Below are positions 28,950 to 54,382 of a stretch of DNA of 64,000 nt, piece after piece. Source of the DNA: Telopea speciosissima (lineage: Eukaryota; Streptophyta; Magnoliopsida; Proteales; Proteaceae); the NCBI RefSeq assembly GCF_018873765.1, contig NC_057925.1:62985970-63049969 (forward strand). The letters are read 5' to 3'. The notes under the pieces were generated by a model. The model worked only from the letters and a program-made list of their open reading frames with translations. It had not been told where the DNA came from and made no database searches. Positions within the stretch are counted from its first letter, which is position 1. Each line of letters begins with the position of its first letter. The position numbers and the translations under genes were made by a program.

Positions 28950-30771
28950 GGAAAATTTACATATACCACCCCTGAGGTTTGATGAAAAGATATTTTCACC
29001 CCTCAGTTTTGGAAAATTCTGCGTACCCCCTTGAGGTTTGCAAGCGGTAACAAATAAGACCATTCCGTCAGTTCATAATTAACACTGTTAAAATGAAGGG
29101 GTAAAGTTACAAACTACCCCTTTAAGAAAAAAAAAACCTGCAACTCATCTTTCCCAAATCGATTGGGGAAGATGAATTGCAAGTATCCTTGTAGGGAACA
29201 AAAACTCAGATTTTTGTCACTCATCTCTCAAGTCTCATCACTGATCATCAATATCCAATCCCATCATCATCTTCTTCCACACTCAACAAAATCACCTCTC
29301 ACAACTTGAAATGGAATCAAAATCAAACCCAACTCCAAGTTCAAAGACCCCATCTCCCTGCAACTACAGCCTTAAAAACCACAGCAGATCCTTCTCCTCG
29401 TGTCGAAACCCTTCTGCAGGCTAAAGCCATGACACTCTCCGCCAATGCCGATTCCTCATCTCTCTCCTTCCTTAAGAACAACAACCGCTATCACTAGCAG
29501 ATTCAACAGAAGCAGCAAATCGATATGGAAAAGAAACAGAGTAAAACAGAGAAGGGGAAAGAGAGAGATAAGGTAATAGAACCCAGAGAAAGAGATGAGC
29601 CGAGAAGGTCGTCAGTCTCCCTCCATAGCGCTAGGAGAAAATCCTTCTGTGATTCCCAGATGGAGTTGGGTGAGTTCTTCTCCACCGTTGGCGTGAAGAT
29701 TGTGGCCGTCGACATGCCACCGTTTATGCAGATCCATGCCGTGACTTGTGCTCGGAAAACATACGATGGCCTTGATAAGTGCACTTCCAAGACACTAGCC
29801 TTTACTCTCAAGAAGGTAAGGAATCTAACATGCAAAGAGATTTCGATTTTTTTCTGGTTTTCAGTAGAAATGTGTGAGAATCCCAGGAAGATGTTAGGCG
29901 AAGATGAAGTGAGATGAAGAGAGAAAAAACAAAACTCCTCCAAACCCCAAAAATCTAAGGTTGATGAGAATCCCAGGAACAATCGATGAGTTCATCGGAA
30001 GGGTGATTGTTCATCTGAAACTACCCCATTTCAAGAATAGAAGCAAGAAATTGTGTAGAGGTTGACGTTTCACAGGTGCAGTGGCCATGGTTTTACTCTT
30101 TACCTTTGGAGGAATTTGTTGTCGTTGAAGCGTTTTGATTGTTTTTGTTGCTGTCCTTCTCTCCCAATCCGTAAAAAATCCAAGGTTCATTCTTGAACCA
30201 CAAATCCAGTTTTCATATTCTTCTTATGTCAATGGAATATATTAGTATATTAATGTATGCGCCAATGTTATAATAGAGGTTGGGGTTGGGTGGTCACAGT
30301 CTAATATCAGATCTGGCGGCAAGTTATGAACCACTCTGGTTTATAGCTTTGGTTCTCTAAATGGGAGAGGGTTTCAGATCTCTGCTTTGGGGGTTTGATT
30401 CATATGTGAAGGAACAATCTATGCCCTAACTTTCATCCAATGATGGCTTGTCGGTATTCAAAATTAATCAGTCCAATAGTGCCACAGGTTGCTGAAAAAT
30501 AAAGTGAACAATAGCAAAGAACTTAAAAGGATACATGCAACTCATCTTCCCCCAAACGATTTGGGGAAGATGAGTTACAGGTTTTTTTTTTTTTTTACAA
30601 GGGCAATTTTATCAGTTCACTTTAAATTTTTAACAGTGTTAGTCATGAACTAACGGAATGGGCTTATTTGTTACCATTTGCAAACCTCAAGGGGGTACGC
30701 AGAATTTTCCAAAATTGGAGGGTGAAAATATCCTTTCGTCAAACCTCAGGGGTGGTATGTGTAAATTTCAC
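28950..30771. mobile_element. Pack-MULE-like element 1 (dynein light chain piece)
   Basis: 1,822 bp bounded by a perfect 9-bp TSD ACGAAATAT (28941-28949 and 30772-30780), the hallmark size for Mutator elements. Long terminal inverted repeats of about 230 bp: 28950-29180 matches the complement of 30540-30771, with shared CCACCCCTGAGGTTTG, AACACTGTTA and CAACTCATCTT. No transposase is present. The interior carries a captured gene piece (29306-29917). Confidence 0.92.
29525..29917 (+). pseudogene. Captured dynein light chain exon
   Basis: The frame MEKKQSKTEKGKERDKVIEP... leads into GVKIVAVDMPPFMQIHAVTC and ARKTYDGLDKCTSKTLAFTL, the N-terminal half of a plant LC8-type dynein light chain (motor accessory / hub protein). 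The homology stops at LKK exactly where CAAGAAG|GTAAGG forms a splice donor at 29815/29816. Beyond it the reading frame runs on as intron (VRNLTCKEIS...) to a stop. So exon 1 plus intron start were copied at the DNA level, and the C-terminal target-binding half is absent. A separate frame at 29306-29497 lies upstream. Whether it is transcribed cannot be seen. Confidence 0.75.
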
Positions 30772-30831
30772 ACGAAATATTAACCTCATCATGTTTACCC
30801 AAAAAAACCTTCATCATTGTTATAAAAATAA

Positions 30832-32402
30832 GTGTTTTTAACAAATGCCCCCTAAAAAAACTCATTTGTCCAAATGCCCCTTGCAATTTTTCTAATTATA
30901 AACTCCCCCTTACTTTAAAAATAGTGTAGCACTTTGGTCCAGTCCGTTAGTCTAGAACATTAGAGGTTAGTTTTAGGGGACTTGATGACCAAAATGCCTT
31001 TATGATAAAAATCAATTAAACTTAAAGAATAAAGTGACCAAATCATCCTCCCCAAATAGTTTAGGATTTGAAATTGAAATTTTTTTCCCCAAATCGTTTA
31101 GGGTTTGAATCCATTTGGAGAGCAAGAGATCAATCCAGAAAATAATTCAGAAAACTGTCAGTCCGCCGCAAAGGAATCTGGTATTTCTTATATCCCAAAT
31201 TCCCAATACCACTTCCTCCTACACTAGGGGTGCCCAACGTTTTTAATTCGCGATTCCCGATCACTGATCCGTGATGTGGACAACGAGTTTCAGATTTCTA
31301 CTCGCCTTCTTCTTCCTTTTGGGTATTGTAAAGTTTTTCCCACTTTCCAAATTTCCTTTTTTTTTTTTTTTTTAAATTCCTTTTGGTTTCAAGTTCTTGG
31401 AATTACAAATAATATGTTCTCATACCGACTTTCTAGAGGTGAATGCTTCCCTTCCATTTATTATTATCATCATCTATGTCGTCCCTTTCAAAGATCGAGC
31501 ATGACTCTTCACGATAGAGAGAGAGAGAATGAAAGAATTCTGAGCAGAAATGGACCTTGAGTGTGATCTAATCTACCGTATAATACCATAGGGAAAAAAA
31601 AGTAGAAAATTCCCTGATACATGCTTGATGATCCCTCCGATTGAAGGTAAAAAGGGCAGTCGATGCTTCAGAGACATGAATCACAGTCAAAATGGACAAA
31701 AATTCAAAGCCTTCCATTAAATTTTCAAATAATGAAGAAGAAAGAGAACTATCCTAATCACATGTTTTCGATAAAATTATTTCCAGGACTATCTAATAAA
31801 AAAACCAGGCATTTTCCGTTATATAAACGGTTGTTATAAATCAAAAGAGGTGAGGGCAGAAAGAACATCGTCGTCAAAGTTCCAGAGCTCCAACGGAGCG
31901 CCACCAACTACGTTTTCTTGTGCGGCATTCTCATTCGCTACCACGGACCGCTTATCTCCCCCATCCAACTATGGAATCTGATAGAACTCCATGTACGTCT
32001 CGAATGCCATTAGCTCCTCCGACAGCCTCTGTAATTCATTTCCCCCCCCCCCCCCCCACAACTGCCCATATAGGATGGAAATTGATTATCTGATCTCTTG
32101 CTTTCCAAATGGGTTCAAACCTTAAACGGTTTGGGAAAAAAAATTTCAGTTCCAAACCCTAAACTATTTGGAGAAGATGAAGGCAATTTGGTCAGTTTAT
32201 TTTTTAATTTTGGTTTTTTTTTTATTATCATAAAGGGCATTTTGGTCATTAAATCCTCAAAAACTAACTTCTAACGTCCCAGACTAAGGGACTGGACCAA
32301 AGTGCTACACTATTTTGAAAGTAAGGGGAATTTGTAATTCGAAAAGTTGTAGGGAGGCAATTGGACAAATAGGCATTTTTAGGGGGCATTTGTTAAAAAC
32401 CC
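30832..32402. mobile_element. Pack-MULE-like element 2 (ERF piece)
   Basis: 1,571 bp with a perfect 9-bp TSD TAAAAATAA (30823-30831 and 32403-32411). Terminal inverted repeats are about 300 bp: the left arm GTGTTTTTAACAAATGCCCC... to about 31130 matches the complement of 32090-32402, with shared TAGTGTAGCACTTTGGTCCA and CAAACCCTAAA-type segments. No transposase is present. A poly(C) run lies at 32042-32057. The interior carries a captured gene piece on the minus strand. Confidence 0.9.
31834..32037 (-). pseudogene. Captured ERF group VII-like C-terminus
   Basis: The minus strand reads LQRLSEELMAFETYMEFYQI-P-stop-LDGG, then QENVVGGAPLELWNFDDDVL, then SALTSFDL and a TAA stop at 31836-31834. 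The run of acidic and aromatic residues ending LW-FDD resembles the C-terminal activation region of plant group VII ethylene-response factors (RAP2.2/RAP2.12-like). That comparison is from memory and needs a search. An in-frame TAG replaces the expected Tyr after QIP. The AP2 DNA-binding domain is absent, so no function is expected. Confidence 0.5.
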
Positions 32403-33739
32403 TAAAAATAAAATGTCATAACTCTCATAAATGGAAAAAAAAACAAAAGGTTAATTTCATGGACACCCCTGTAAGTATACAATATATCACGGATATACCA
32501 AACTTTTGAAAAATATCATAAACTATCTTTATTTTATGTTTTTATTTCAATCTAGTCCACTCCGTTAGGGCTATGCAGTTAAATTGCTTTTAATTCTTTT
32601 ATAATGCTAAAATTACCCTTATTTCATGTTTTTTCCCTTCTTTCCGTTAGGTCTATGCAGTTAAGTTGCTTTTAATTCCAACAATGAATAGGACAAGTCT
32701 GGAGTTGCCTTTCATTTCGAGTTGTTGAGGCCGGTGCAGTTACTCTTATTAGTTTGTTTTGGATACTTGGTGCTTAGAAATAGAGATATACTGCACTTAC
32801 TTTTGAAAGGTCACCACAGTTGTTGCACCTTGAGCTTTAAATTCTCGCTGTTTCGCTGTTAGGCCAGTTTTCATTTAAATCTTAATTATTTTCTTATTCC
32901 AGTTCGTATTGATCAAGGATCAAACTTAAGAGTTTAGTTGAATTCTACTTAGATAAATCAAACATATTGCATACGGATGCGCCTTTTTTTTTTACATTTG
33001 TAGTTCTTGATTGAAATTTTTAGGTTTGAATGATGTAGTTTGTTTTAGCTCAATCGAATCGAATGTGCTGTAGGAATGATTCATGTTTAATGAACCACGC
33101 TCTTCCTATAATTTCTTTTCCTTTTGATTGTATATATCCGCACTGTTAAATTATTTATAAGTCTGAATGTTTGTAGTTTTATGGTTTTCGGGAATTTAAT
33201 TTTCATAAGCATTTATTTGGGTTCTAGAAGCCTGATGGTTTCTGAGAAAGGACAATAAGCCATTAACATTAGTTGGAATCACAGGCTGGAAGATGAATCA
33301 TAAAATTCACTTCCTCTTCATTTGGAACCATTGCCTTTGCCAAGGGAGACACTTTGCACATTCCCCACTGTGGGTACCATCTTAAGGATTGCTGGGTCTC
33401 CAGGCTATATATGGAAAGCTTGGCCAACATTTTCAAGGTTGTAGCCAATGGGTGAGACTCCATAACATAAGTTGTCGATCGAGCATGGTCAGGGTTGTGG
33501 CTTGGTATTCTGATGCCTACTTCTAATTAAGCTCGATCCGGTCTTTGTCAAACAAGGATGACTTTGTAATTCAGCATCAAAGGTATTCGGTTCTTGTGAT
33601 TTATATATTGTAAAACTCTTCTAGCGTTCTTTGGTATTATGATGTTGCCTGCCTGAATTATGAATTAGGGATTATAATGATCGATCGATTATCAACTTAT
33701 GGTCGTGTGCCTTTGTTGAGCTATCAATGTCCTCAGATT

Positions 33740-33784
<45 letters not shown>

Positions 33785-36232
33785 TTTATACCAGTACATG
33801 TGCATTTAATTTTATCTATGATTGTATATTCCTTTTTATGCCTATTTACTTATTTATTTTCTCTCTCAGTGACAAATTATGAAGAAGAATGTGCGACTTT
33901 GATGGATCTTCTCACTTCTTCAGAGGTCATGTATCATTTCGGTTAATATTCTTACTCCAATATATAGTTCTTATTGTACGATCTTGATATATATAATCTT
34001 GTTGGTAATTATTGTAGGGTGGCATTGTTATAAAATTCGATATATAGCGTGTGTGCTTTCCTTTTAAAGGATATGATTGAATCAGTCTAAAACTTACATA
34101 GATTGGGGGTATTGTTTTTCTTTTCAAGTTGTTGAATGAATGTTTTAATTATTAGAACATGATATTAACACATTCCCCTTCCGTTTATGCATGAGCAGAT
34201 GTCTCATACTTCTAGTGGTATTTATTTACAGGTGACGGCCGGATATATTCAAGTGTGTGGTTCGCGTGGTAGCTGCAGACCCCTGGAAAATTGAGGACTT
34301 CTGTACGTCCTCCTGGTGGGATGCATGAATATATAGGATCAGATTTACGTAGCTTGGAGGACCCAACTGCAAGAATTCATGCTTATCTAGATGTATATAT
34401 ATATGCTAAGGAAGGGGCCGGGTAAAACCTTTTTGCTTTTTCTAACTCCATATCTACAATTCATTAATTCATAATCATTTTCCACTTTTGATGTTTCTTG
34501 TAGGACGACAATCTTTTTGGTGGTAAACCCCCTGTGGATGTACTGACAAGAAACATGAACAATTTACTTGCATGGTATAACTGAAAATGAAAATAGTGAG
34601 AATTAATAATAACGAAAATGCTCCAAGAAATCCTCCTTGGATAGAATGTTGCATAAAATGTTATCATCGGGATAAAAATAACCCTTGGGGAAGTAGATGT
34701 AGAAGATTTCAGATCTTTGGAACTAATTAAGCTTATTGCATAAGACATTAGGAGACTGACTACAGGTCAGTATTTTATCTTTGGTTTTTTATAGTATGTC
34801 TTCAAAACATGGAACAAATGGTACAATAACTGACATTATAATTTAATGTGTTATTTACGAGTTTTACTCCTCTGAGTTTTTTGTAAGTGCAGGGAATGTT
34901 TTTGTCATCTGTCTATTTCAAATACTGTTTCTCATCGGGTGTAACTTTCAGAGATGCTTGCAATCATGTAAATTTTTTAGGTTTTTTCAGTTGAACTCTT
35001 GAGTGAACAGCTCATAACTTGATGTGGCTTCCAGGAAACTTCTACCCCATGCCATCTTTAATTATATTTTTTTAGGGGGTTGAGATTTCTAACTTTTTTT
35101 TTTTTTTTTTAATTGTTTGGATAAGAAAGCATTTGTTAAACAAACCCGCAAAACCCTAACCTTCCCCAGGTGAAGTTGGGATTCGATCCCAATTCGTGGC
35201 TATAACCAATCACTGCCTTTTACACCAGCTGCATTAGTTGGCACCTTGCCCAGTCCCGGATTTGTGGCCATGCGTATTGAATTTGGCAAAATATAGGTTG
35301 AGTTGTTTGTGTTCTCTTATAATGTGTTATCATGTCCATGTCAACCTAGAAATGGAAGAATAAGAGCAAATCATGTTGGGATTTAGGTTGACACGATTAC
35401 TTTTTGGGTCATGTTGAGATTGGATAGCTTTTGACCTAACACAAATTTGACAAGGTAGAAACACAATGCTGTCGAATCCGTTGCTTGGTGAGGCTCTTTT
35501 CCAGTTACTAAATGGAGGTCCAGTGATTGGAGAGGATCATGAGCCACCCCTCTTTTGTCTATGATGAAGGAATCATAATGAGATATAAAATGGGATTAGT
35601 AACTCATTGAGGGGGGAAAAAAAACCCGTAGAATATGACACTACTAGTTATTATCCAAGCATTGAATTGAACGACTGTTGTAGGCTCTGAATGACGAGGC
35701 CATCCGATGAAGTGAAGTGGGGTTGTGGAGCTGTTCAAAGCGTTCCCCCTGCAATCATGTGGGTTTTAGGTAGTGCTTCATCTCCATCAGCTCGTGTCTT
35801 CTGCTTTGAGCTGCTAGGGGGAGCTCGGTCTCACCGTACAATGAAGATTGCCAGCAGTTGGAGCCCTTTGTCCATTCTGCGAGGTGGCCAATGATTGCAT
35901 GGCCTCTACCAAGCAAGTGAATCAATTAATCCTTTGTCCATTCTTGCTAATATTGGTTTCTCAATTGATTTATTGATTTTGAACGTATTATTTTGTGGAC
36001 CGAGTTTTGCTCCACTCACGGTGACGGGAGAGGACAGGAATGGGTATTGGGAGGGTATTTTGGAACATACAAAAATTGAAGGAGGGGTTTGTGAACCCTA
36101 GGATGGTGGGTAAGGTGAACTACCTTCTATGGGTGGAGGAAAACTTTGTCCTTATTTTCTTTATTTCCGTGTAATTTCGTATTCTTTAAAGGTGCTATTG
36201 ATCGTTGTATCTTGTATGATGGAGAACTTTGA
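32403..36232. other. No gene recognised
   Basis: AT-rich sequence. A repeated CCGTTAGG-CTATGCAGTTAA segment occurs at about 32562 and 32646. The frames at 33677-33946 and 35691-36101 have no recognised domain. A degenerate GGATTCGATCCC at 35170 recalls a tRNA B box without an A box. Intron or intergenic DNA is most likely. Confidence 0.5.
33745..33781. repeat. (TC)n microsatellite
   Basis: About 18 TC units. Confidence 0.95.
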
Positions 36233-36241
36233 TTTTATTTA

Positions 36242-37890
36242 AGGTAAATTACATGTCACCCCCTGATTTTCAATTGAAACTCAGATCATCCCCTGATTTT
36301 TGAAAAAACTCAAATCACCCCCTGGTTTAGACCCCAATATGAAAAATTTGTCCCTAACATTAGTTTTATGCTGTTAAGTGATGATGTCAGCCAGTTAAAT
36401 AAATTTAAATTCCTAAATTACCCTTGACCAGTGTTGATTTACTATTTTACCCTTGAAACCCCAAATTCATCCTCCTCACACCTGCAACTCAATCTCAAGC
36501 AAAGTTCACTGGAGAGAAGAAAAGGCAGAAGTTTCATCCCAAGTGACAATAAAAACCTCAGCAAGAAGCTTTATCCCCTTGATTCCCATCTCTTTTAAAA
36601 CCAACTTAAACCCACTCTGTCTCTATCTGTACCTCTTTCTCATTCAAAAACTTTCTTTTAACTTATCTCTGCATTCATGGCGTCTTTTATCTCCTTGCTC
36701 TTCTTTATCACTGTTTACGTGACATGCCTCTCCCTTTCATCTTTAGAGATTGTTCTAGCTCTGAGTCACTCTCTCTCAAAAACCCAATTTAAGTTTAACC
36801 ATACCCACCAGCTCCTCAAATCCTCCTTTGTTCATTCAACCACCAGGTTCTGCAACCACCATCATCATCATGGACACCTCCACCGCCGCCAAATCTCTCT
36901 CCCTCTCTCTCCTGGTAGCGACTACACTCTCCTTTTCTCTTGGCTCCGACCCAATTCAAACCATATTCCTTTACATGGACACCAGTAGCGACCTAGTCTG
37001 GTTCCCTTGCTCCCCTTTTGAATGCATTCTCTGCGATGGCAAATACGACACCTCCGTCACCACCACTCCTCCTAACATCTCTTCCTCTGCTTTCGTCGCT
37101 GCAACTCCCCTGTCTGCTCCGTCGTCCACTCATCCCTCCCCTCCTCTGACCTCTATGCCATCTCTCGCTACCCTTTGGAAACCATCGAAATCTCCGATTG
37201 CTCTTCTTTCGCTTGCCCACCTTTCTACTATGCTTTTATTGTACTTTATGTTCGATCTCTCTATTTGACTGAACTCATTTGCAGGTTTTTTCTAGTCTGA
37301 AAGTGCAATAAGAAGAGCCCCTTTGGGATTCTTATCTGCGGAGGAGTTCTACGAACGAAACTCCGTCTCTCACTACTCTCAGCCAACGCTAGAGGCATGA
37401 AGCTCTTCACCCAATCCTAGATCCCTCTCCCAACCAACAACATCTTGGGTATAGTTGTCGTCGTCTACGGTTATACCGACGAAACAAGCTGGTTCGTACA
37501 GCTCAACTCCATCCTCTTGGAAGAAAAAGGGAAGAAACGAAATAATTTTAAAAAAAATTAATAAAAATAAAAAAAGATTTGGTTGTACAGGTTTTCCCCT
37601 TCAAGCTGGTTCGTTGAATCTTCAACTTTCCCCACGAAGTGCGTCAACAGCGGTGGCGTGGCGGTGCTACGAGCGGAATGTTGTAGGAAAGGGGTGGGGT
37701 ATTTTAGGTTGAAGATGAAGGAAGGGTAGTATTGTAAATTTAGTTCTAATGTTTTAGTACAAGGGTAAAATAGTCCTTTCACACCAATAACTAACATCGT
37801 TACTGTAGAGGGGGTGATTTAAGTTTTTTCAAAAACTAGGGGACGATCTGAGTTTCGATTGAAAACCAGGGGGTGATGTGTAATTTACCC
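36242..37890. mobile_element. Pack-MULE-like element 3 (aspartyl protease piece)
   Basis: The ends AGGTAAATTACATGTCACCC and (complement of the right end) GGGTAAATTACACATCACCC are inverted repeats of about 65 bp. The flanking nonamers TTTTATTTA and TTTTATTAT agree at 7 of 9. Subterminal sequences differ between the arms. The interior carries an aspartyl protease fragment. A sibling without cargo starts ten bases to the right (37900). Confidence 0.82.
36677..37263 (+). pseudogene. Captured aspartyl protease N-terminus (A1/nepenthesin type)
   Basis: Starts MASFISLLFFITVYVTCLSL, a signal-peptide-like stretch. After a frame break near 36930 it reads SFSLGSDPIQTIFLYMDTSS, then DLVWFPCSPFECILCDGKYD, the first catalytic region of plant atypical A1 proteases (At4g16563-like by memory). 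The catalytic DTGSD reads DTSSD. A second shift near 37095 moves to RRCNSPVCSVVHSSLPSSDL and then SDCSSFACPPFYYAF. The second catalytic Asp is absent. A non-functional partial copy; broken fragments may continue to about 37540. Confidence 0.75.
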
Positions 37891-37899
37891 TTTTATTAT

Positions 37900-39185
37900 C
37901 ACCCCCTGGTTTTCAATCGAAACTCAGATCGTCCCCTAGTTTTTGAAAAAACTTAAATCACCCCTTGGTTTAGACCCCAATATGACAAATTAGTCCCTAA
38001 TGTTAGTTTTATGCCGTTAAGTGATGATGTCACCCAGTCAAATAAATTTAAATCCCTAAACTACCCTTTAGCAGTTTATTGTAAATTTATTTCTAATGTT
38101 TTAGTACAAGGGTTAAATAGTCCTTTCACACCAATAACTAACAGCAGAATAACATCGTTACTGTAGAGTAAGGGTGTCAATTGGGACGGTTCCAGGTATT
38201 TGGGGCGGGACGGTACCGGTACCGGTACCGGTACCAAAAGTGCCAATCCCAGTACCGTCCCATTTAGTTAACGGGACCAAACCTAGATCCTAGTCCCAAT
38301 TACTAGCCGGACGGGACAGTACCGGTTCTTAAACGGTTCTAGGCACTGTAGAAAAAAGGAGAAGAAGTTTAATTGTTTCTAACAAGGCGGGTTTATTAGT
38401 ATTGTGGAATTTTTTCACTATCATGAAATCTAAGTTGTCTACTGCTTTTTATAAAGCAACTTAAATTATGAAATCATAGTTTTACTTCTTCAAACTCCCT
38501 AAGATCACATGTAATAAGCTTCTCATTTTTTTAAATCTTGAGAAATCCTACACAATGGAAGAATCCCGTTGTGTTTTTCCTCTTGGACTTTCCCAGACAA
38601 AACTCTATTTATCACACGTCACATGGTAGTATGGTACGAAGTACGAAGTGCAAAAAGGAAGAACCTGGTAGATGTAGTTGGTCGAGGGAGGAGGGAGGAG
38701 GGAGGAGGGAGTAGAACTGTAACAGGTTCTGTGAGGAGAGACTTCAAGCTATGGCTGTTGACATATTGTTCCTCTTCATATTCAAAAGGCAATTAGTGAA
38801 CCCCTAATGAGTCGTAATTCTAATACCCTTTCTTTATTATTTTTTTTTTTAAAAAGATCTTATATACTCTTTCTTTTTAAGCGGTACTAGTAGTTTCGGT
38901 ACCATCCGATACCTAATTGGTATTTCGGTACTGGTACCGTTGGGAGTCCCGTCCCAGAACCGTCCCATCCCATTTATCATTCAGTACCAAAATCAGATAC
39001 CAGTACCGTCCCATTTACTAATGGGACGGTCCGGTACCGGGTTTTAGCGGGACGGTATTGGGACGGTTCCCGGTTCCGGTCCCAAATTGACACCCTTACT
39101 GTAGAGGGGGTGATTTGAGTTTTTTCAAAAACTAGGGGTGATCTGAGTTTTGTTTGAAAATCAGGGGGTGACGTGTAATTTACCC
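37900..39185. mobile_element. Empty sibling of element 3, holding a hAT element
   Basis: The left arm (37900-38168) repeats element 3's left arm (CACCCCCTGGTTTTC..., GACCCCAATATGA, AGTGATGATGTCA) and then jumps directly to element 3's right subterminal sequence (TCTAATGTTTTAGTACAAGG, CACACCAATAACTAAC, ATCGTTACTGTAGAG). The right end 39107-39185 matches element 3's right end. Net length is about 350 bp with no cargo. The first 12 or so bases of the left terminus are missing. A hAT element (38169-39098) interrupts it. Confidence 0.8.
38169..39098. mobile_element. hAT-type element rich in GGTACC
   Basis: 930 bp with a perfect 8-bp TSD CTGTAGAG (38161-38168 and 39099-39106). Termini TAAGGGTGTCAATTGGGACG and, inverted, TAAGGGTGTCAATTTGGGAC are classic plant hAT ends. 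Both ends carry GGGACGG, GGTACC and CCGGTACCG words, including a perfect (GGTACC)4 at 38212-38235. No transposase frame. Confidence 0.9.
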
Positions 39186-39310
39186 TATTATATTTTTTGT
39201 TTTTTTTTTTTGTTTGTTACAAGAAACCCATTACCATTAGTAGTACCCGAATTTGCTCTTTCTTTACATCTCGAGGGGGTGTGGGAGGTGGTGGGTGGGG
39301 GGAGAGAATT

Positions 39311-39478
39311 TTTATCCTCTCAATTACATTGCCCGTACTTGACGTCAAGTACATCTAATAGAGGGAGGTGGACCCCACCTCGGGCAGTGTGTTCGGGCAG
39401 GGGGTAGGATAGTCATTTTTGCCTCCTCTGTTAGATGTACTTGACGTCAAGTACAGGCAGTGTAATTGAGAGGATAAA
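39311..39478. mobile_element. Foldback MITE with long arms
   Basis: Two arms of about 55 bp (39311-39365 and 39423-39478) are inverted copies: TTTATCCTCTCAATTACA, then the 18-bp perfect palindrome GTACTTGACGTCAAGTAC (39335-39352 and again 39437-39454), then ATCTAA-AGAGG. No clear TSD. Confidence 0.8.
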
Positions 39479-40035: not shown

Positions 40036-40055
40036 TCAAGCATCCAATTTTTTCT

Positions 40056-42650: not shown

Positions 42651-42660
42651 GATTGGAGTG

Positions 42661-43303: not shown

Positions 43304-43894
43304 ATGGCACGCTCATGGATTGTTCACTCCATTGTCCCCACCATCGCCCACAACATCCTGTGGATCAATTCTGCTAGGGATGCATGGCTAAATCTTCATG
43401 ACCGATTCTCCCAAAAGAACGCCCCTCGGATCTATGAAATCCGCCGTTCAATCTCTACATTGAGTCAAGGTCATGACTCTATTTTAGCTTATTACACCAA
43501 GCTGAAAAACCTGTGTGATGAACTCTCATCCTATCGATCTATGCCAACATGTACTTGTGGAACTGCAGCCACGATCCTTGGCTTCTTTGAATCCGATGGT
43601 TTAATGGACTTTCTACAGGGTCTTAATGACTCATATGCTGTTGTCCGCAGCCAAATCCTCTTAATGGATCCACTCCCTACCGTGGCCAAAGTTTATTCCT
43701 TGTTGCTGCAAGAAGAGCGCCAACGATCGATCCATTCGATCTCTGCTCCAACTATTGAACACGTTGCCATGGTTGCTGGTTCATCAAAGAGTAACTCTCA
43801 ACGTCCTAAGCTGACATATCATTGTGATTTTTGTGGCAAAGATGGTCACTCCGAGAGTCGATGTTTCAAGAAACATGGCTTCCCTGATGGCTAA
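43304..43894 (+). pseudogene. Copia gag, UBN2 domain with zinc knuckle
   Basis: 196 codons: WIVHSIVPTIAHNILWINSA, RDAWLNLHDRFSQKNAPRIY and LMDFLQGLNDSYAVVRSQIL form the UBN2 gag fold. CDFCGKDGHSESRC near the end is the CCHC zinc knuckle. The true start lies upstream in another frame (MAESTQASSISTAQISVHSP at 43045), separated by a stop near 43126. Confidence 0.88.
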
Positions 43895-44129
43895 AGCTCT
43901 AGGCCACCCTCAAAGAGCACCAACAACCATGGCACCACTCTTCAACGTGGTTCCAATAAGCCACCTCACCATTCTGCAGTAGCAGCATCAGGACTGATTT
44001 CTGCCACAGCACCAACCTTGACTGCTGATCAAATTAATCAACTTTTGGCTTTACTCCCTGTTGGTAATCCCCATCCTCTCGTATACCTTGCAGGTAAATT
44101 ATGTCTAGCTTCTGCATTCGGTTCAACCC

Positions 44130-45669
44130 CTTAGATCATTGATTCCGGGGCAACCAATCACATATCTTGTGATTTATCATTTTTCTCTAATATTTCCACA
44201 CCTATCCATGCACTTCCCATTACTTTGCCTAATGGTGACCAAACCCCTGTTGTTCATACTGGAAACATTTGTTTATCATCCTCTTTGACCCTAGAAAATG
44301 TCCTTCATGTTCCCAGTTTTCATTTTAATTTGCTATCCATTCCAAAAATCACTTCCACGGCTTCTTGTGAAGTTATTTTTACTAATAATTCCTGTCTTTT
44401 TCAGGACCCTCGATCGAAGAGGATTATTGTGACGGGTAAACGACATGGTAATCTTTATTACTTGGACACCCCAAACCCATCTGTTGCTGCCGATTGCTCT
44501 TCTTTGGACCTATGGCATTGTCGCCTAGCCACCTGGGCTCTTCTGTTATTTCTTCCTTAAAACTTTTGGACTCTACTATTTCTTTTAAAAATATTTGTCC
44601 ATGTACAATTTGCCCTTTGGCAAAACAGCGTCGTTTATCATTTCCTCTTAGTACTATTTCTACATATTCTTCTTTTGATATGATCCATCTTGATGTTTGG
44701 GGACCCTATCGAACACCCTCTTTATCAAGGGCACGATACTTTCTAACTATTGTTGATGACTTTACAAGAAGTACATGGCTCTATCTAATGCAAACAAAGG
44801 ATGAGGTTCCACACCTACTTCAATCCTTTTTTGCTATGATAATTACTCAATTTGGGGTACAAATCAAAGTCATTAGATCCGATTAGGGAACTGAGTTTTT
44901 TAACACTCAAAATTTCCAATTTTTACAAAAGCTTGGAGTTGTCCACCAATCCAGTTGCATTTCCACCCCTCAACAAAATGGAGTGGTGGAATGCAAACAC
45001 AGACACCTTTTGAATGTAGCCTGCGCCTTGCGTTTTCAAGCCAACCTACCATTAAAATTTTGGGGAGATTGTGTCCTCACCACCACACATCTTATAAACC
45101 GTTTGCCTACACCTGTGTTACATGGAAAGACACCATTTGATTTGTTATATGGAAAAACCCTAACTTTTTCACACCTCCGTGTTTTTGGATGCTTATGCTT
45201 TGCTAGGAATACCAATATTCAACACAAGTTTGACAAAAGAGCTTCTCCAGGGGTTTTTCTTGGTTACGCATATGGGCAAAAAGGGTACCGAATTTATGAC
45301 AAAACAAATGGCAAAATTTTGGTGTCTAGAGATGTTGTCTTCCATGAACAAATTTTCCCCTTTCAAACACTTAAGGATAACTCCCAAGCTTTTGTTCGTC
45401 CCCTGTTACCAACCCAAACCGGAGATGATTTTGACATACCATTTGACACGGTTCCTCCAACACCTACCCCGGCAGCACCTATACCCACCATCGAACCCGT
45501 GGGCATTTCTACTCCACCAATTAAAGAAGAAAATTCAGTTCCCCAACCTAAACGTTCTACACGGTCTCGAGGACCGCCCAAGTATCTCAAAGATTACCAA
45601 TGTTCGTTTCCCCAGTCTCAATTACCCTCTTTGGTGATGGCCCAAGGTATTTCTCACCCACTCCATTAA
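44130..45669 (+). pseudogene. Copia protease and integrase
   Basis: Protease IIDSGATNHISC at about 44136 keeps its catalytic Asp. After a frameshift at 44515 the integrase reads KNICPCTICPLAKQRRLSFP (zinc part), HLDVWGPYRTP (first Asp) and TIVDDFTRSTWLYLMQTKDE; a TAG interrupts before [25 protein letters not shown] follows. The frame 44983-45669 continues through [16 protein letters not shown] to a Pro-rich linker. Confidence 0.88.
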
Positions 45670-45873
45670 TTTTTACAATACAATCGTTTTTCTTCCAATC
45701 ATGTTGCTTTTCTAACATCTTTAGCTAGCATTACCGAACCTGCAACCTTTGCTGAGGCAATGAAAATCCAACAATGGAGAGATGCCATGCAAATGAAAAT
45801 CCAACAGTGGAGAGATGCCATGCAAGCAGAAATTGGGGCCTTAGCAGAGAACAATACATAGTCACTTGTCCCT

Positions 45874-46716
45874 TTGCCCCATGGAAAAAAACCAATTGGA
45901 TCAAAATGGGTGTTCAAAATTAAGTGCCATTCTGATGGCTCAATCGAGCGGTACAAGGCTCGTCTTGTAGCAAAAGGTTATAATCAGGTGGAGGGCATTG
46001 ACTATCATGACACATTTGCCCCTGTGGTGAAACTTGTTACAGTACGCACTCTGATTGCCCTGGCCGCCATACAAGGATGGTCACTACATCAAATGGACGT
46101 GCATAATGCATTCTTGCATGGTGATTTAAATGAAGATGTCTATATGACACCAGCGCCTGGTTATCGACGAAAGGGGGAGAATCTTGTTTGCAAACTACAC
46201 AAGTCCCTATATGGTTTAAAACAAACCTCATGTCAATGGTTTTCAAAATTTTCAAGTGCCCTGCTACAATTTGGCTTTTCCCAATCTCAAGCTGATCACT
46301 CACTATTTGTTCTCCGGCGACAAGATGCAATGGTATATATAGTGCTCTATGTGGATGATATAATCATCACCGGCACTGAGTTTTCTTTGATCGATGAAGT
46401 GAAAGCCTTCCTATTTCAAAACTTTCGAATCTTGAAGTATTTTTTGGGTGTTGAAGTGGCCCGCTCATCAAAGGGCATCTATCTCTCACAGCGGAAGTAT
46501 ATCTTGGACATTCTCAGTGATTCTGGGCTCACCGGTACTAGGCCAGCCACAACACCAATGGAGCAAAATTTGCACTTAACAGATACAACTGGAGATTTAC
46601 TACCCGATCCATCATTGTATCGTCGCCTTGTCGGCCGCTTGATATACCTCACCGTTACCCGCCCTGATATTGATCAAACGGTCAATATTCTAAGCCAATT
46701 GATTCTTTATCTGTAA
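45874..46716 (+). pseudogene. Copia reverse transcriptase
   Basis: 280 codons, open: KKPIGSKWVFKIKCHSDGSI, ERYKARLVAKGYNQVEGIDY, HQMDVHNAFLHGDLNEDVYM, SLYGLKQTSCQWF and the catalytic YIVLYVDDIIITG. It ends at TRPDIDQTVNILSQL, before RNase H. The polymerase motifs are intact, but the upstream TAG at 45859 and the missing RNase H argue against function. Confidence 0.9.
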
Positions 46717-46720
46717 CAGC

Positions 46721-47432
46721 TAATCTTAGGAGCTAATTAGGGAGTCAATTATCCTAGTCATTGATATGAAAACTCATATGGTAAGAGATCCCAAACAATA
46801 TGTACCGAGGGGCCGGAGTGACTCACAAGGACTATGTTGTACTGCTTCACGTACCCTTTCAAGGATAGGAAGGACGTCGTTGCCATCGAGCCTCTGATCT
46901 CCATGGGCGTTGAAGAAGGCTTGTTCTCCAGTCTGAGGTCGATTACCATCGTTCAGTGGTTCACGTTCCTTGATCAGTTCCTAAAGATTTGTGCCACTGT
47001 GGTCCTCAGAACCAATTCTAAGAAGAATTAATTTTTCTTTCGAATTCAAAGTTTTAACCAGAGCTTTTGCAAGGAAACAACAAAGGGAAAACAGGAGGTG
47101 GGGCAGTGTGGCAAAGGATGGGGCACAGTTGTAGAAGATGGTTTTTGGGGGGCGGGGGGGAGAAGGGGGTGAGGTAATGGGGCCAGACGCGTACGCAAGT
47201 GCAAACCTGAAGCCCAACTCCCATTCATTATTTTTGAAGGAGGCTGTCAAGTTATTAGCATCTTCCTCCATATTATGTATATACATGTACCAATAGTTGG
47301 GACAGCGCCAGATGCAAGAAAAAAGAATGGAAAGAATGAATGAATTTATATTTTTTTGGGTAAAAAGAAAGAATGAATGAATGAATGAAATTGAAGGGAG
47401 ACAAAAATATGGACCTCACTCACTCCGAAGGG
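46721..47432. other. Rearranged LTR-like DNA and unassigned sequence
   Basis: GATATGAAAACTCATATGGTAAGAG at 46765-46789 is the inverse of the copia LTR end at 42921-42945. The plus frame 46834-47031 (MLYCFTYPFKDRKDVVAIEP) has no recognised family. A GAATGAAT-type short repeat lies near 47370. Confidence 0.4.
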
Positions 47433-47555
47433 GATGAAATTTTGCAACTACGAGGCTTGCATCCAAAGAAATGGGATATGAACCCAAAGGGAAAGAGAAT
47501 TATTCCATTTCCTTGGTACCAGCCTTGTAACAGCAAATTTTTATTTTTTTTTCCA
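47433..47555. mobile_element. Small MITE, second copy of the 42661 family
   Basis: Shares GAACCCAAAGGG, GAATTATTCCATTTCCTTGG and the end AGCAAATTTTT with 42661-42863 but is internally shorter (123 bp). Flanked by TCCGAAGGG and TCCGAAGAG (8 of 9), a Mutator-size TSD. Confidence 0.7.
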
Positions 47556-47676
47556 TCCGAAGAGACTCCGACCGCATGCTTCGATCGTACGTGGACATAT
47601 GGCCGAAATTCTTGGGGCAGTGAAAAACGTTCCACCTCTGAATGAATGAAAAGCTCACAACCAAGCAAAGGGCCGG

Positions 47677-47679
<3 letters not shown>

Positions 47680-47761
<82 letters not shown>
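47680..47761. repeat. Long (CT)n microsatellite
   Basis: About 40 uninterrupted CT units, 300 bp upstream of the universal stress protein start codon. Confidence 0.97.
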
Positions 47762-47763
<2 letters not shown>

Positions 47764-47940
47764 CTATCTCTCTTTATAGTACTCTCATCATCGACCAGAG
47801 TCGAGAGCGCAAGCCCAAGAGAGACTAAATAAATAAAACGGCAACCTCGTGCATGTGGCCTCCTTAAACAGAGCTGCACAACGTTAACGCAGGTTAGGAA
47901 GGTGAGTGAGTACGTACGTAGTGTTACCAAGAAGAGAAGT

Positions 47941-47973
<33 letters not shown>
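47941..47973. repeat. (AGC)11 microsatellite in a probable 5' leader
   Basis: Eleven AGC units, 90 bp before the start codon of the stress-protein gene. Confidence 0.95.
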
Positions 47974-47975
<2 letters not shown>

Positions 47976-48060
47976 GCTGAAGAGAAGAGTACGTAAAGAA
48001 GAGATTTTAATCAGATCAAAATTAATATAAAAAAAACAGAAAGAGATCGAGAGAGGGGAT

Positions 48061-48978
48061 ATGGCTGGAGAGTCGAGCGCGGGGGGAAGCAGTTGTTCAT
48101 CGGGGGAGCTGGCGGAGATGAATAATAAAAATAATAATAATAATGGGAAGAAAAAAGTGGTTGTGGTGGGAGTGGACGACAGCAAGGAAAGCTTTTACTC
48201 GCTGGAATGGACAGTGGAGAATCTGCCAATGTTGAGAAAGGATATCCAGGTTGATGATCATCAGTCGTCGTCGGCCGCCTTGTTCAAGCTGATCCTGGTA
48301 CACGTGAAGGTCCCAGCAGTCTCAATCCTCAGGTTTTCTGGGCCAGGATTTGGTGATGTCCTTCCTCGGATTGAAGCCGATCTCAAGAACACTGCTTCCA
48401 TTGTTACTGACAAGGTCAAGGACTTCTGCAACCAAAAATTGGTATAACACCACAGACAAACTGATGATCGATCACTAATAAATATATATATATATCTTAG
48501 AATTGATTGAATTGCATGCATTTTTAATTAATTGGTATATAGCTAGCTAGCTCATGATATAAATTCTGTCTCTTTCGACTTCCGAATATACGTAGATAAC
48601 GGATTATGAAGTGGAAGTATGGGAAGGAGATGCACGGAATGTGCTGTGTGAGGCCGTGGAGAAGCACCGTGCTGACATTCTTGTTGTGGGGAGCCATGGC
48701 TATGGTATCTTCAAAAGGTAATTAATTTTTACTTTTACTTCACTTAATAATAATAAGATGATGATGATGATGATCAGTTCATCAATTGCAAGTTATCTAT
48801 ATATATATATATATACTGCGCCCATGCATGTTTCTAATTGTTTCTATCTCCTTCTTCTTGTTGTTGTTGTTGTTGGCATGGTTGCAGAGCTATTCTTGGG
48901 AGTGTGAGCGACTACTGTGCGCATCATGCTCATTGCAGTGTGATGATCGTGAAGAAAACCAGCAATACTAATAATTAA
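48061..48978 (+). CDS. Universal stress protein A-like protein, three exons
   Basis: Exons 48061-48441, 48596-48717 and 48888-48978, with donors TTG|GTATAA and AAAAG|GTAATT and acceptors ACGTAG|ATAACG and TTGCAG|AGCTAT. The spliced product is 197 residues. A Ser/Asn-rich N-terminal tail (1-30) precedes the USP fold: VVVVGVDDSKES at 33-44 (first strand), ILVHVKVPAV at 78-87, and the nucleotide-binding signature Gly159-x2-Gly162-x9-Gly172-Ser173 within VGSHGYGIFKRAILGSVSDY, then CSVMIVKK. This keeps the ATP-binding pattern of the ATP-type USP subfamily. Plant USPs of this kind respond to stress and hormone cues; the exact role is unknown. It has intact signals and sits upstream of and convergent with the TRM-like gene. 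A (CT)n tract and (AGC)11 lie in the promoter/leader. Confidence 0.93.
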
Positions 48979-51085
48979 GCAGTGAAGTATATATATGATC
49001 CAGCGATCGATATCCATGCATGAATTAATGCATGCATCTCTCTTTCTCTCTCTCCTTCCAATCTTTACTTCCAAATTAAATAGTACCTATTTATGTATGT
49101 ATATGGATTATGTATTAATAATGATGCAAAGGGATCTCGATCATCTCCTTCTTTCTTTCTCTCTCTCTCTCTCTATCTCTGGTTGTATTCCCGTTTATTG
49201 TGAATTGTAGTGCTATTCAAAATTAAAAATATATTACTTAGCGGTGTGCATGCATGTGAAATGTGAGGGTCGTTGTCCGGCCCTATATATAAGCTGGTAT
49301 TTATCAATGATTGATCATTCCATCACCTTCCCAGGCCCCCTCCCTCCTCCGGATCCAACTCCTCTACTTTCGCTTGCCTGGTATTACTGTGCGCCCTCAC
49401 ACACAAGCACCGTAGAAAGTATCGCCTTACCCCCGCTCGGGCAAGGCACTTGGGTAGGGGTAAGGCAATACTTTCCGCCTTGCTTGTGCGTGAGGCGCAC
49501 ACAACAGTAGGGACAGGCGGAAGTAGAGGAGTCGAATTGCCCTCCCCTTCTCCCCCCAACCCCCCCCAAAAAAAAAAAAAATTTATCTTCTTGTGGTACA
49601 TCAAAATTCACAAACAGCTTCTTTATTTTTTCTAACAAAATAAATAGGAAAAAATATTCTTGCACCATGGGTGGGTGAAGGAAAACTACACCCATCTAGA
49701 GTTATAAACGCTCTATCTACATTAAATAGAGAATGGAACATCTGCACATACAGGTGAACATACATGCCAAAGTAACCACTTGTCCTTTTTGTTTTTCCAT
49801 TAATATACCTTTGATCCTTGTAAACGAAAAACATGGGACAAGGGGTTACCTATCCCACGTACATGCACCTGCAAAGCAAAATGCAATCAAACTCATACCA
49901 AATTTTATGAAGCCTTTCATAATTACCGCATAGCGGTTCAATTGGGGTTTAAATATTTATAGTCAAAATTTCAGACAAAATGACATCATCCCCATATGTC
50001 ATTATATAAATTTGAAAGAAGGGAAAAAAAAAAAAAAAAAGATATAAAAATGTTTAAGGAATAAGTTCAACAAGATTAATAAAAAAAAAATCAGGAAATG
50101 GAGTCCATACATGGTGGATAGATTATCAATTAGGTGTAGGCGCTTTCCAGAGGTGGAATCTTCTACTTCTTCCTATTTGACCCGAAATGTATCCATTGAT
50201 CTTTGACGAGTAATTTATCTTAAAATCAAATTAATTGTCAATCTATCAAATCATGGGTGTTGTACCTCGATTTAGAAAAATTGATTAATATGATATAGAA
50301 CTCCTAATCTTAACTTGTGACACTTTTTATCCCAAACAAACAAACAAGGAGAAAGAAGAGAAATCGTAGAATCCAGCAAATATATATAATTGCTGAGAGA
50401 GAGGCGATGAGGCTTTAGTTTTGCTTGGATAAAATGATTTTTCTTTCTAACTTCCAGAGGGACTCTTTTCTCTGCTTGATGGAAATACTCCCTTGGGAGT
50501 TGGAATTGGAACTCTTTGTTTTTTTATTGGGGGGGAGGGGAGTAAAATCATAACAACATTTGGCAAAAAAAGAATAGACTACAATCACGGTTAACAGATC
50601 CATCAGCCAAAGCGGAGACTGTCATCTCTGTTACGGCAAGAAAAATGATCAAGAATACAATACTTCCTCAGTCCCAGGAAACATTTCTGCTTTCTCTAAT
50701 TTCTTTTTGAAACTTTATATTGATAAAAACCATCGATTCCAGCCAGACAACCTAGCTAGTTTTGCAGAGAAAAATTACCCAGTATGTTATGTTACTCTCT
50801 AGGAAAGATAACAAGCAGCTACGACTCTAGGACACAGGACATCACCAAATTGATTCACACACTACTATATATTTGTATTATTTAATTATTTTTCATGAGA
50901 ATTGATACAAACTAATTTTTATCTAGACAGTAGGAAATTGAAAGATAAATTACCTATTACCCTTAGCTCGGTTAATTATATCCTTAATTTTTTTAATCAT
51001 CTACAGTTAAGACTGTAGGTAGGGAACTAAAAAAAATATTATTCTCAACCCGTTTTAGTAAGTAGAGTGGAGATCCTCAACTATA
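48979..51085. other. Intergenic DNA between convergent genes
   Basis: AT-rich and holds both 3' untranslated regions: the stress-protein end with CT-rich runs (49035-49180) and the TRM-like gene end. It contains the foldback element at 49354-49537. No credible frame. Confidence 0.6.
49354..49537. mobile_element. Foldback element, arms of about 80 bp
   Basis: Left arm 49354-49435 (CCAACTCCTCTACTTTCGCT, then ACTGTGCGCC, CACAAGCA, GAAAGTATCGCCTTACCCC) is repeated inverted at 49456-49537 with several mismatches. The loop is short. No clear TSD. Confidence 0.75.
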
Positions 51086-51994
51086 CTATACTAATACTCT
51101 ACTATTGTGAACATCTACAATAGATCCTTCCAACCCCGACCACCCCTTTCGTCTTGCGTGCTCCACTGCAATCGGCTTCATAACACCGTAACCACCAGTT
51201 GTATTTGAGCCCGACAATGCTATCCCTCTCCCAAACCTCCTGCAACCACTGTTGGTACCAATAACAAGCCGCCTCCTGTTCTCCAATTCTTGTCTTTCAG
51301 CTCTCCTAAGATTTTCCCTCCTCTTAATGGTGGAATTCAGAGTTAGTTTCTCTTTCCTGCATTTACCGCTACCAATTGTGACTGGCATGGCTTCCAGGCC
51401 CATCAGCTTGGCTACCACGCCTGGTTCGCACCAAAGCACGCTTTCTCCAGCTATTGTTTGGGGTAACCCGGGAGTTCTCTCCAAATCTATTAAATCAGCA
51501 AAGCCATCCTTCTCCCTGATCAGTCTAATACCATTGCTACTGCAAACCGAATTTCTCCCACCCCTAGCCAAGGGAGCCAAGTTGTTCTGGAATGAAGATC
51601 GATACATGGCATCCCTCCCATCCACAGAGAACCGAGGGTACTGATTCAACGCATTCCTTGCAGAACGTAGAATGTCAGAGTTGTTAACACATGACATTCT
51701 ACGTTGACACACATCAAAGTCATCAAGCTTTGCCTTCCTTGTAGCCTCCTCTTCTAACTCCAGCTGCAAGATCATCTCCTCCAGGGTTAGTGGCCTATCT
51801 TCCAAATTAATGCCCTCCCGGAAGGCAGAGCTAATAATGGATGGGGACACTATGCAGGAGGACGAAGAATCACATTCAACCTTGTTTTGGTTGAGTGTCG
51901 ATGCAGAACCAACCCCATTGCAGAAGCTTCTGAAGCCTTTTTTCATCTTGGCTCCCAGAGAGTTCTTGAGGAGAAAGAAAGATGGGTCTTTCAT
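51086..51994 (-). CDS. TRM-like protein with VARLMGL-type motif
   Basis: Single-exon gene, 302 residues, ATG at 51994. It carries LEEMILQLELEEE at residues 71-83, the signature of the plant DUF3741 family, and VVAKLMGLEAMP at 193-204, a version of the VARLMGL motif of TRM/LONGIFOLIA-type proteins, which bind or recruit TON1-like factors to cortical microtubules. The Lys-rich stretch IKRRENLRRAERQELENRRR follows, probably helical. Most TRMs are longer (600-1000 residues), so this is a short member resembling single-exon VARLMGL proteins of unknown role. The short N-terminus MKDPSFFLLKNSLGAKMKKG begins the frame; the start is the first ATG of the open frame. Convergent with the stress-protein gene. 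Confidence 0.85.
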   Translation of the reverse strand: MKDPSFFLLKNSLGAKMKKGFRSFCNGVGSASTLNQNKVECDSSSSCIVSPSIISSAFREGINLEDRPLTLEEMILQLELEEEATRKAKLDDFDVCQRRMSCVNNSDILRSARNALNQYPRFSVDGRDAMYRSSFQNNLAPLARGGRNSVCSSNGIRLIREKDGFADLIDLERTPGLPQTIAGESVLWCEPGVVAKLMGLEAMPVTIGSGKCRKEKLTLNSTIKRRENLRRAERQELENRRRLVIGTNSGCRRFGRGIALSGSNTTGGYGVMKPIAVEHARRKGWSGLEGSIVDVHNSRVLV

Positions 51995-52883
51995 GGGGTG
52001 GAGGACCGTCGTGTGTTGTTGTTACTTGTTACTGAATGAGAGAACAACAAGAGGAAATGGGCGTGAGCCGTGAGGAAGAGAAATGAGTGCAGAAGGGAAG
52101 TAAAGAAAAACAAAACAAAAAAGAAGCAAGGATGGATGGATGACAAAATGGAACGTGAATCGAGTGAATGGAGAGGCGAGAATTCAGTGCTACACCCTTA
52201 AAAGCATTCACGAGTTAACACTACCACCATCTGATCAGAGTCACACTCACACGCCGCTTAAACTCTACAATTATTTAGCCAACTAAAGTCTTTGCCACTT
52301 GTCTCCCATCACATCCATTCCAGGTGATGATCGTCACTTTTTAAGTTTAGGGGATCACAATCAATCAATCAATCCCTGAAAAAGAAGGAAAAAAAAAAAG
52401 AAGATTTGACCATCCATATTTCCTTAGGTAGATAGATAGATGGATCGATGCATATATGCATCACTGCAATTGAACGTTTATACGTGACACAGTAAGGATG
52501 GAACGCTCTTCTCACAATCCAAAACCTCAAAAAAAAAATTTTATTTAAGACTCAAGAAACCATATTCTGGACAACCGGCAAAAAGTATATTTCGAGTTAT
52601 TTCATTCAAACAAAACCTTCAGCTTAAGCACAAAAATGGTGCCGAGTCTGACACCAAAGATTAAATCTCATCTAGCCAGCCAACGTATCAACGGAGGTCA
52701 TAAAAACAGCCAACAATTCATCAATCCTAAAGCAGAGATTTAGTCCCACAAGCACGTTATATCACTAAAAGCTTAAGCACAGAAATGGTAAAATATTCTT
52801 CTACCAAAAAAAAATGGTAAAATATTCTACTAGTACCAGTTCACGGTGTTTTACACAAAACGGGAGATGTGAAAAATGATCCA
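51995..52883. other. Upstream region of the TRM-like gene
   Basis: Contains GATGGATGGATGAC-type and GATAGATAGATGG short repeats. CAAAGATTAAATCTC and AAAGCTTAAGCAC-like words suggest old repeats near 52610-52800. No coding frame recognised. Confidence 0.4.
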
Positions 52884-52892
52884 AAATTAATA

Positions 52893-54382
52893 GGGAAATT
52901 TACGTCAATCATCCCTGGGTTTCAAACAATTACTTCTACCAGTCCTAGAATTTCATCTATTTCATAAACTTTCCCTGTATTTTGAAAGATTTTTACAAAT
53001 GTAACTCTATCGTTAAATGAGTACAGTTAAGTGATGATGTCATCGTCCAAATATTAACTAAATGTTCATAATACCCTTAATGAAGGTATTTTTATATTTT
53101 TACCCCTAGCCCTAACCCATTAATTTCTCTCCCCTCTCTCACTCCTTCCTCTCGCTGCCAGAGTCCCCTGCTATTGCCGGAGTAACTAGACAACGATGAA
53201 GTGTAAAACCTCTTCCATTATTTTCTTTGGATCGAAAAGCTTAGTTGGTGGGTTGAAATTTCTCCTTTTTTTCTCAGGTTGAACTAGGGTTTCAATAGAG
53301 ATAACTAGGGTTTCAACAGGAGCTCAAATGAGTTACAAATCAAGGTTGATATGAGTATTGAACTGATCCTTAACTTGGCTGAAGAATAATTGCAATATTT
53401 CCTTTGTTTGTGCTGATCAATACCTGTAACTTCTTCAGATCTGATTCTACGTTTTCGTCCCCCCCCCCCTCTCTTCCCCCCAAGTTTCTTCACTTTTCGA
53501 TTAGCTTAAAGTCTTGTGGGTTGATCAGTACTTAGACCAACAACCATGTCTCGAAGGATAGGAAATCTTGCCAGACGCATTGCAGACAGTGGTAGTATTC
53601 CATTTGTGAACTCATTGAATCAGAAATCACGCTCTTCACCTTTGCTGTCAATTGGGCTCGTCCTTGTGGTATTCTTATTTATGCTTTCTGTTCTCTGTAA
53701 TTCTACTTTAATTTTCTTGCAATATTTCTCTGTAGATAATTATCTTCATGGACTTACAATTGTGAGAAAGTCATTACATATCAAGGTTTATCTTTCTAAA
53801 TATCCAGTGCCAACAAGAATTCACTTGGGATAATAACGATTTCTTCAATTACTCCAGATCTAATATCTAGTTTTTGCTGATTGTTTGGGACTTTTATAAA
53901 GCTGGTTGAATTTGATTTTGGCCTGGTCTAAACCCTTGAGTTGCTGAAATTTGAGATCTCCAGCGAATCCCCTGCTATTACCGGAAAAATAGATGGTTGC
54001 AGTAGTGCAAGCTAGACAACGGTTGGGTTGGGTGATTTCATCAAAGGGTTGGGGCTGGGATTATGTGAACAAGGTCTAGGGGTGATGCAAGGTATGGCTT
54101 GGTGTTCAAAGGCTAGGGCTCGGGCGTTGCAAAGTTAATTGTGGTGTGCCTTGCAGACGGGCCGCAAGAGATCTGCAAACAGGGTGGCAGGGCTGATGTG
54201 CTGATGGAGCCAATGGGGCTGTTGTCCAAAGGTGAGGGCAGAGTTGGAGCAGGGAGCAAAATTATAATTTCCTTCTAAAACTAACAGAATTAGTACTCAA
54301 TGGTACAAAAATAATTTTTGAATTTCCAAGGATGGTAGACATAATTGTTTGAAACCCTAGGGGTGCTAGATGTAAATTTTCC
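52893..54382. mobile_element. Pack-MULE-like element 4 (CGR2/3-like piece)
   Basis: 1,490 bp with a perfect 9-bp TSD AAATTAATA (52884-52892 and 54383-54391). The ends GGGAAATTTACGTCAATCAT and, inverted, GGAAAATTTACATCTAGCAC belong to the same style as elements 1 and 3; the shared inner stretch GGGTTTCAAACAATTA gives a terminal repeat of about 70 bp. No transposase. A captured gene start lies at 53546. Confidence 0.9.
53546..53668 (+). pseudogene. Captured CGR2/3-like N-terminus
   Basis: Reads MSRRIGNLARRIADSGSIPF then VNSLNQKSRSSPLLSIGLVL, the cytosolic tail and start of the membrane anchor of plant CGR2/CGR3-type Golgi proteins (pectin methylation) as I remember them. Homology ends at LVLV, where CTTGTG|GTATTC offers a donor, and the frame runs on as apparent intron to 53833. 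The catalytic domain is absent. Probably exon 1 captured at the DNA level. Confidence 0.55.

Follow-up and report, generated by a model that had tools for sequence, protein, structure and literature searches.

Gene-capturing Mutator-like elements in a 64-kb window of the Telopea speciosissima genome and their traceable donor genes

How do pieces of several different plant genes come to lie between the inverted termini of transposable elements, and can the genes that gave them still be found? This question is raised by a 64-kb stretch of the Telopea speciosissima genome (C10:62985970-63049969 of the 822.9-Mb assembly), the whole of which was analysed and is referred to here as the window. A sequence-only reading of this DNA had proposed four elements with terminal inverted repeats (TIRs) and target site duplications (TSDs) of Mutator size, three of them with perfect 9-bp duplications. 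Each was thought to hold a piece of a different gene, namely a dynein light chain, an ERF, an aspartyl protease and a CGR2/3-like gene. These elements are named E1, E2, E4a and E5, respectively.

The ends of the elements were considered before their contents. A check of the coordinates confirmed that E1 (28950-30771), E2 (30832-32402) and E5 (52893-54382) each possess inverted termini and a perfect 9-bp TSD, which is ACGAAATAT in E1 (28941-28949, right copy 30772-30780), TAAAAATAA in E2 (30823-30831 and 32403-32411) and AAATTAATA in E5 (52884-52892 and 54383-54391). The window was further scanned for perfect, non-homopolymer 9-bp direct repeats flanking 30-nt termini with an inverted match of at least 21/30, for elements of 120-6000 bp. 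The scan recovered E1, E2 and E5 and nothing else, and it found no element in any of 30 Markov-shuffled windows. The fourth element, E4a (36240-37889), has GGTAAATTAC ends and no perfect TSD at its ends in the window. Four near-full-length relatives of it, with 88-89% identity, are present in the genome, so that the E4a type amounts to five copies in all. The TSD is perfect in two of the four (L080, TTATTTTTA; L082, TTAAACTTT) and matches at 8/9 in L083, and none was found in L081. The 9-11 bp TSD by which MULEs are recognised is, therefore, present in E1, E2 and E5, while the E4 type shows it in two of four relatives and not in the window copy. The proposed set of four elements was thus borne out, with a decayed duplication in E4a.

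The TIRs are of unequal length. They align over 246 columns at 85% in E1 and over 311 at 84% in E2, which puts both in the long-TIR subgroup (100-500 bp). E4, taken as 36240-39187, and E5 lie outside this subgroup, with 84 columns at 90% and 64 at 80%. MULEs with short, less similar TIRs are also recognised in the available text of one account (PMC3903597), and the length bears on the subgroup rather than on the status as a MULE. When the termini of E1, E4 and E5 were compared with each other, 15 of 16 scores, in the range 17-28, were higher than anything reached in 100 shuffles (null maxima 14-18); only the left end of E4a against the right end of E5 fell short (16, with a null maximum of 17). 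The termini of E2, of the type GGGTTTTTAAC, are unlike the others, bar one marginal case (E2 left against E5 left, 20 against a null maximum of 18), and E2 is of a different TIR family. The earlier suggestion that three of the four have their ends in common stands as a short terminal resemblance, but not as membership of one family.

As for the contents, the fragments by themselves matched Dynein_light (E=0.0096) and TAXi_N (E=9.8e-5) in Pfam, both under the curated cut-off. The ERF and CGR pieces alone gave nothing meaningful in Pfam, and a PDB search with two fragments returned nothing significant. Since these fragment-level matches were weak, the donors were sought as DNA in the same genome, and a donor was located on another contig for each of the four elements. 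An absence of protein matches had been named beforehand as speaking against gene capture; it was partly seen for the fragments alone, but the DNA donors overrule it. The names CGR2/3 and ERF group VII are those of the sequence-only reading; Pfam backs AP2 and, weakly, a methyltransferase.

E1 is an 1822-bp element with TIRs of ~245 nt (28953-29193 and 30524-30768). Its first captured piece (29258-29877, plus strand) comes from a dynein light chain gene and covers the 5' part of that gene, its exon 1 and the beginning of an intron. The donor is C3:9953289-9953906 (95%, 588/620 columns), and the next exon of this gene gives Dynein_light at E=2.9e-18. The captured sequence continues from the exon into the intron and then ends at a sharp breakpoint. 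A second piece of 372 nt (29903-30274) matches an unlinked genomic locus, C1:19310573-19310948, at 90%, and it is followed by a subterminal module (30265-30540) that is common to other members of the family. Two further full copies of E1 are found on C6 (interior 97%) and C5 (interior 95%), each with a TSD matching at 8/9. E1 thus occupies three sites, and the TSD is different at each and perfect at one of them.

In E2, the captured piece (31426-32040, minus strand) holds the 3' flank of an ERF/AP2 gene and approximately 190 nt from the end of its frame, placed antisense in the element. It matches C4:68548224-68548852 at 83%, where a donor frame of 242 aa carries an AP2 domain (E=7.4e-14). A second copy of E2 exists on C9, split into two parts ~4.3 kb apart. 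It was also observed that a 159-nt stretch of E2 (31888-32046), mostly from the ERF region, occurs at 92% in three loci (L065, L066 and L067) that contain E4-type sequence as well. It may thus be that two TIR families picked up the same gene end, or that one passed it to the other.

The TIRs of E4a measure 81 nt at 90%. Between them, at 36531-37235 on the plus strand, an aspartyl protease gene is represented by its 5' end and N-terminal part, with a shifted frame. The captured stretch ends at a sharp breakpoint. Its donor, C1:70895337-70896034 (92%, 648/709 columns), has an open frame of 545 aa with TAXi_N, TAXi_C and Asp domains. E4a is abutted by E4b (~37899-39187), an element with the same TIR type that lacks ~15 nt of its left end and shows no clean TSD. 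The facing TIRs of the two form a near-perfect palindrome at 37811-37964, with 67-nt arms that are 100% complementary and a 20-nt spacer. The TIRs of E4a itself are only 90% alike, which suggests late copying or conversion at the junction. No TSD was found around the outer TIRs of the pair, and E4a and E4b together are accordingly not classed as a multiple-TIR MULE.

E5 has short, diverged TIRs. Its captured piece (53435-53751, plus strand) comes from the CGR2/3-like gene, of which it holds exon 1 and the sequence preceding the ATG. The donor is C5:13590296-13590564, with 92% over 265 nt and 277/322 columns over a longer stretch; a frame of the donor that lies further downstream matches Methyltransf_11 at E=9.4e-4, just under the cut-off. 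One older relative, on C2, resembles E5 along its length at 76%. A frame on the minus strand at 51086-51994 carries a VARLMGL motif, and E5 begins (52893) ~0.9 kb upstream of where this frame starts. Placement in the 5' flank of genes is often described for Mutator elements.

What kind of elements are these? In E1, E2, E4a and E5, the interior holds a piece of a host gene with a parent copy elsewhere, and movement as a unit after capture is evident for E1 and the E4a type. It may be argued that MULEs were inserted by chance next to gene pieces that had arisen as ordinary retrocopies or segmental duplicates, as retroelements are abundant in both the window and the genome. However, the intron sequence in the E1 piece means that it is no retrocopy. 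Moreover, the pieces are enclosed in TIR-TSD units, and for E1 and E4a the piece and its unit are found together again at unlinked sites that have TSDs of their own. An origin as chance neighbours is hence hardly credible. The intron sequence of E1, together with the sharp breakpoints of E1 and E4a, those examined, points to capture at the DNA level. We are thus highly confident that the window contains at least four Pack-MULEs, the interiors of which were copied at the DNA level from unlinked host genes and subsequently moved as units.

The question then extends to the rest of the genome. The end pattern of the E1 type has 249 forward and 263 reverse exact matches (512) in 823 Mb, as compared with 1 and 0 for a control pattern, and the rough density is ~0.3 element-equivalents per Mb. 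A first look gave unconfirmed candidates numbering 2405 for the E1 TIR, 2744 for the interior of E4a, 356 for that of E5 and 15 for that of E2. One hundred of the 512 matches were listed, and 48 of these can be joined into 24 forward-reverse pairs, which lie on C1 and C2 and were all analysed. At a fixed offset, the 9-bp flanks are identical in 14 pairs (one of them a homopolymer), differ by one mismatch in five (two of them homopolymer runs) and by two to four in the remaining five. When the ends of different elements were paired instead, 4 identical and 14 one-mismatch flanks were seen among 552. The only wide-spaced pair among the matches listed (L073/L074, C2:32359159-32371646) is a 12-kb member on C2; it holds an LTR retrotransposon, which is of the gypsy type by eye.

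Frames of at least 72 aa were scanned with Pfam in 23 of the 24 members, chosen by their paired ends only; the 12-kb member was left out. A host-gene domain at E<=0.001 was detected in 11 of the 23, of which 10 exceeded the curated cut-off, and the other 12 gave none. The domains are EF-hand (L022, below the cut-off), Peptidase_C97 (L024), CRAL_TRIO_N (L025 and L026), Kelch (L029), HSP20 (L030), Mlo (L035), Glyco_hydro_17 (L036), DUF641 (L040) and Gpi16 (L075 and L076), so that eight different host genes are represented above the cut-off. As controls, 20 stretches with a length of 1.85 kb were taken from C1-C3 at round coordinates. Two, or at most three, of these carry a host domain: an SDR (L043), a PGG (L047) and one ankyrin match that was left unplaced; the other families in the control stretches are retroelement domains or have E above 0.001. 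In Fisher's test of members against controls, 9 and 8 of 20 gave p values of 0.031 and 0.065, and 11 and 10 of 23 gave 0.009-0.054; these values are too favourable, since the sample includes three pairs of members that are each copies of a single element (L025/L026, L023/L037 and L031/L035) and one pair with the same gene (L075/L076), which takes away their independence.

The interiors were also compared with one another, in 24 elements comprising the first 20 E1-type pairs along with E1, E2, E4 and E5. A common interior of at least 80 bp was found in 12 of the 276 pairs of elements, three of them at full length. These pairs involve 11 of the 20 E1-type members and none of E1, E2, E4 and E5. 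The same non-genic filler in every copy, the other outcome that was to speak against capture, was therefore not what was seen. The 10 frames examined in the window elements contained no transposase, and none was found in the 122 ORFs of 20 members, where 17 Pfam families were matched at E<=0.01, or in 18 ORFs of three more members.

How are such interiors put together? Eight of them (E1, E2, E4a, E5, L025, L028, L033 and L036) were searched against the whole genome, and seven have stretches that match other loci in the way that a donor or a paralogue would. In this search, L028 showed no clear donor, only copies, two relatives at 73-75% and short terminal matches. Four of the eight (E1, L025, L036 and L033) join stretches with different best-matching places. 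In L025, query positions 22-1011 correspond at 90% to a CRAL-TRIO gene on C4, the donor frame of which was typed by Pfam, and positions 1011-1371 also occur alone, in three places with 93-95% identity and in others with less. By DNA match only, positions 1-656 of L036 go to a locus on C5 at 94%, while positions 713-1051 stand alone at six places, all starting at 713 or 714; likewise, by DNA match only, positions 1-243 and 263-641 of L033 match different loci. The occurrence of modules alone and with constant boundaries suggests a stepwise assembly. Counting the query, full or nearly full interiors are present 5 times for L025, 7 for L036, 6 for L028 and 12 for L033. The interior copies of L033 at its 11 further places are up to 98% identical, suggesting recent amplification. 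It is possible, and we put it forward tentatively while leaning somewhat against it, that one MULE TIR family is specialised in capture, in which roughly half of the members, or more, carry host-gene pieces and are built stepwise from reusable modules that pass from one element to another.

By what route might host DNA enter such elements? The ends, the duplications and the several copies at different sites are observed. A MULE transposase, presumably supplied in trans, would cut at the TIRs, and insertion would produce the 9-bp target duplication. Template switching in the course of repair or replication would be the most plausible way for host DNA to come in between the ends, because the breakpoints are sharp, the unlinked donors are still present and an intron was retained. 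The captured piece would then be copied and recombined further, probably in this order, with some members coming to join two or more places. As for the source of the transposase, which the sequence-only reading had suggested might be a single one for three of the four elements, PF10551 has at least 150 matches in this genome (150 of 828 candidates were scored), many in long open frames. Among the matches listed, 17 on C1 and 15 on C2, none is closer than 29 kb to any E1-type end listed. No autonomous element with E1-type ends was found among 100 of the 512 ends listed and 150 of the 828 candidates scored.

A different route to the same Pack-MULEs is the fusion of neighbouring insertions, which are then mobilised as one without template switching, a model described for Pack-TYPE elements in the available part of PMC8903248. 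That E4a and E4b abut and that E1 and E2 are 60 bp apart would agree with it. Nevertheless, the donors remain in place at unlinked sites, and when each element was compared by BLAST with its donor and ~1.5 kb on each side of it (L012, L062, L084 and L091), the search returned the captured stretch and none of the element's own TIRs. Fusion is, therefore, considered unlikely as the source of the pieces, and template switching is retained as the preferred route. A further proposal concerns the fate of the pieces rather than their entry, namely that at least one captured frame encodes a functional fusion protein under selection. The 130-aa frame of E1 does read through the dynein exon, and the L025-type copies give a dN/dS of 0.43-0.60 against their donor, a value that includes the constrained donor branch. 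However, neither of the other two E1 copies keeps this frame intact, as stops or an indel interrupt it, and the protease frame is shifted in E4a. In the five L025-type copies, a common 1-nt deletion and one or two stops interrupt the donor frame, and dN/dS between the copies is 0.70-1.06. On account of these stops, frameshifts and ratios, a functional fusion protein is not supported and seems very improbable. The captured pieces examined look like near-neutral passengers that decay like non-coding DNA.

The elements share much with known systems. As described in the portions available of PMC3903597 and PMC8277862, the Pack-MULEs of rice and maize are similarly non-autonomous, carry pieces of host genes from donors that are often unlinked and are in some cases multicopy with distinct TSDs. 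The available text of PMC3903597 gives 2,924 Pack-MULEs against about 32,000 MULEs in rice and 276 against 12,900 in maize; these counts cover all families under other criteria, so that they are not directly comparable with the 11 of 23 seen here in one TIR family (PMC3903597). E4a and E4b set two related TIRs side by side, as do multiple-long-TIR MULEs in the accessible part of PMC3310237; in contrast to those, the inner TIRs of E4a and E4b point towards one another, and the pair showed no TSD in common (PMC3310237). Acquired interior DNA and composite members are likewise features of Pack-TYPE elements that arise from adjacent insertions, as far as these are set out in the part consulted of PMC8903248; the present elements differ in having unlinked donors that remain in place.

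The capture of host-gene pieces by MULEs is a known phenomenon, and it is the traceable originals and the apparently high share of carriers that stand out here. A narrow literature search on Proteaceae together with Mutator or transposable elements, judged by title, returned nothing on the subject. In the available part of a review, the step by which unlinked genes are acquired is left open (PMC13317346). In the present case, capture events with both donor and product in hand are available in a Proteaceae genome. Because the breakpoints are sharp, the donors are unlinked and some elements have stretches from several places, these events provide a usable test bed for the acquisition of genes by DNA transposons. 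If the E1-type family is indeed specialised in capture, it would constitute a combinatorial system that shuffles gene ends.
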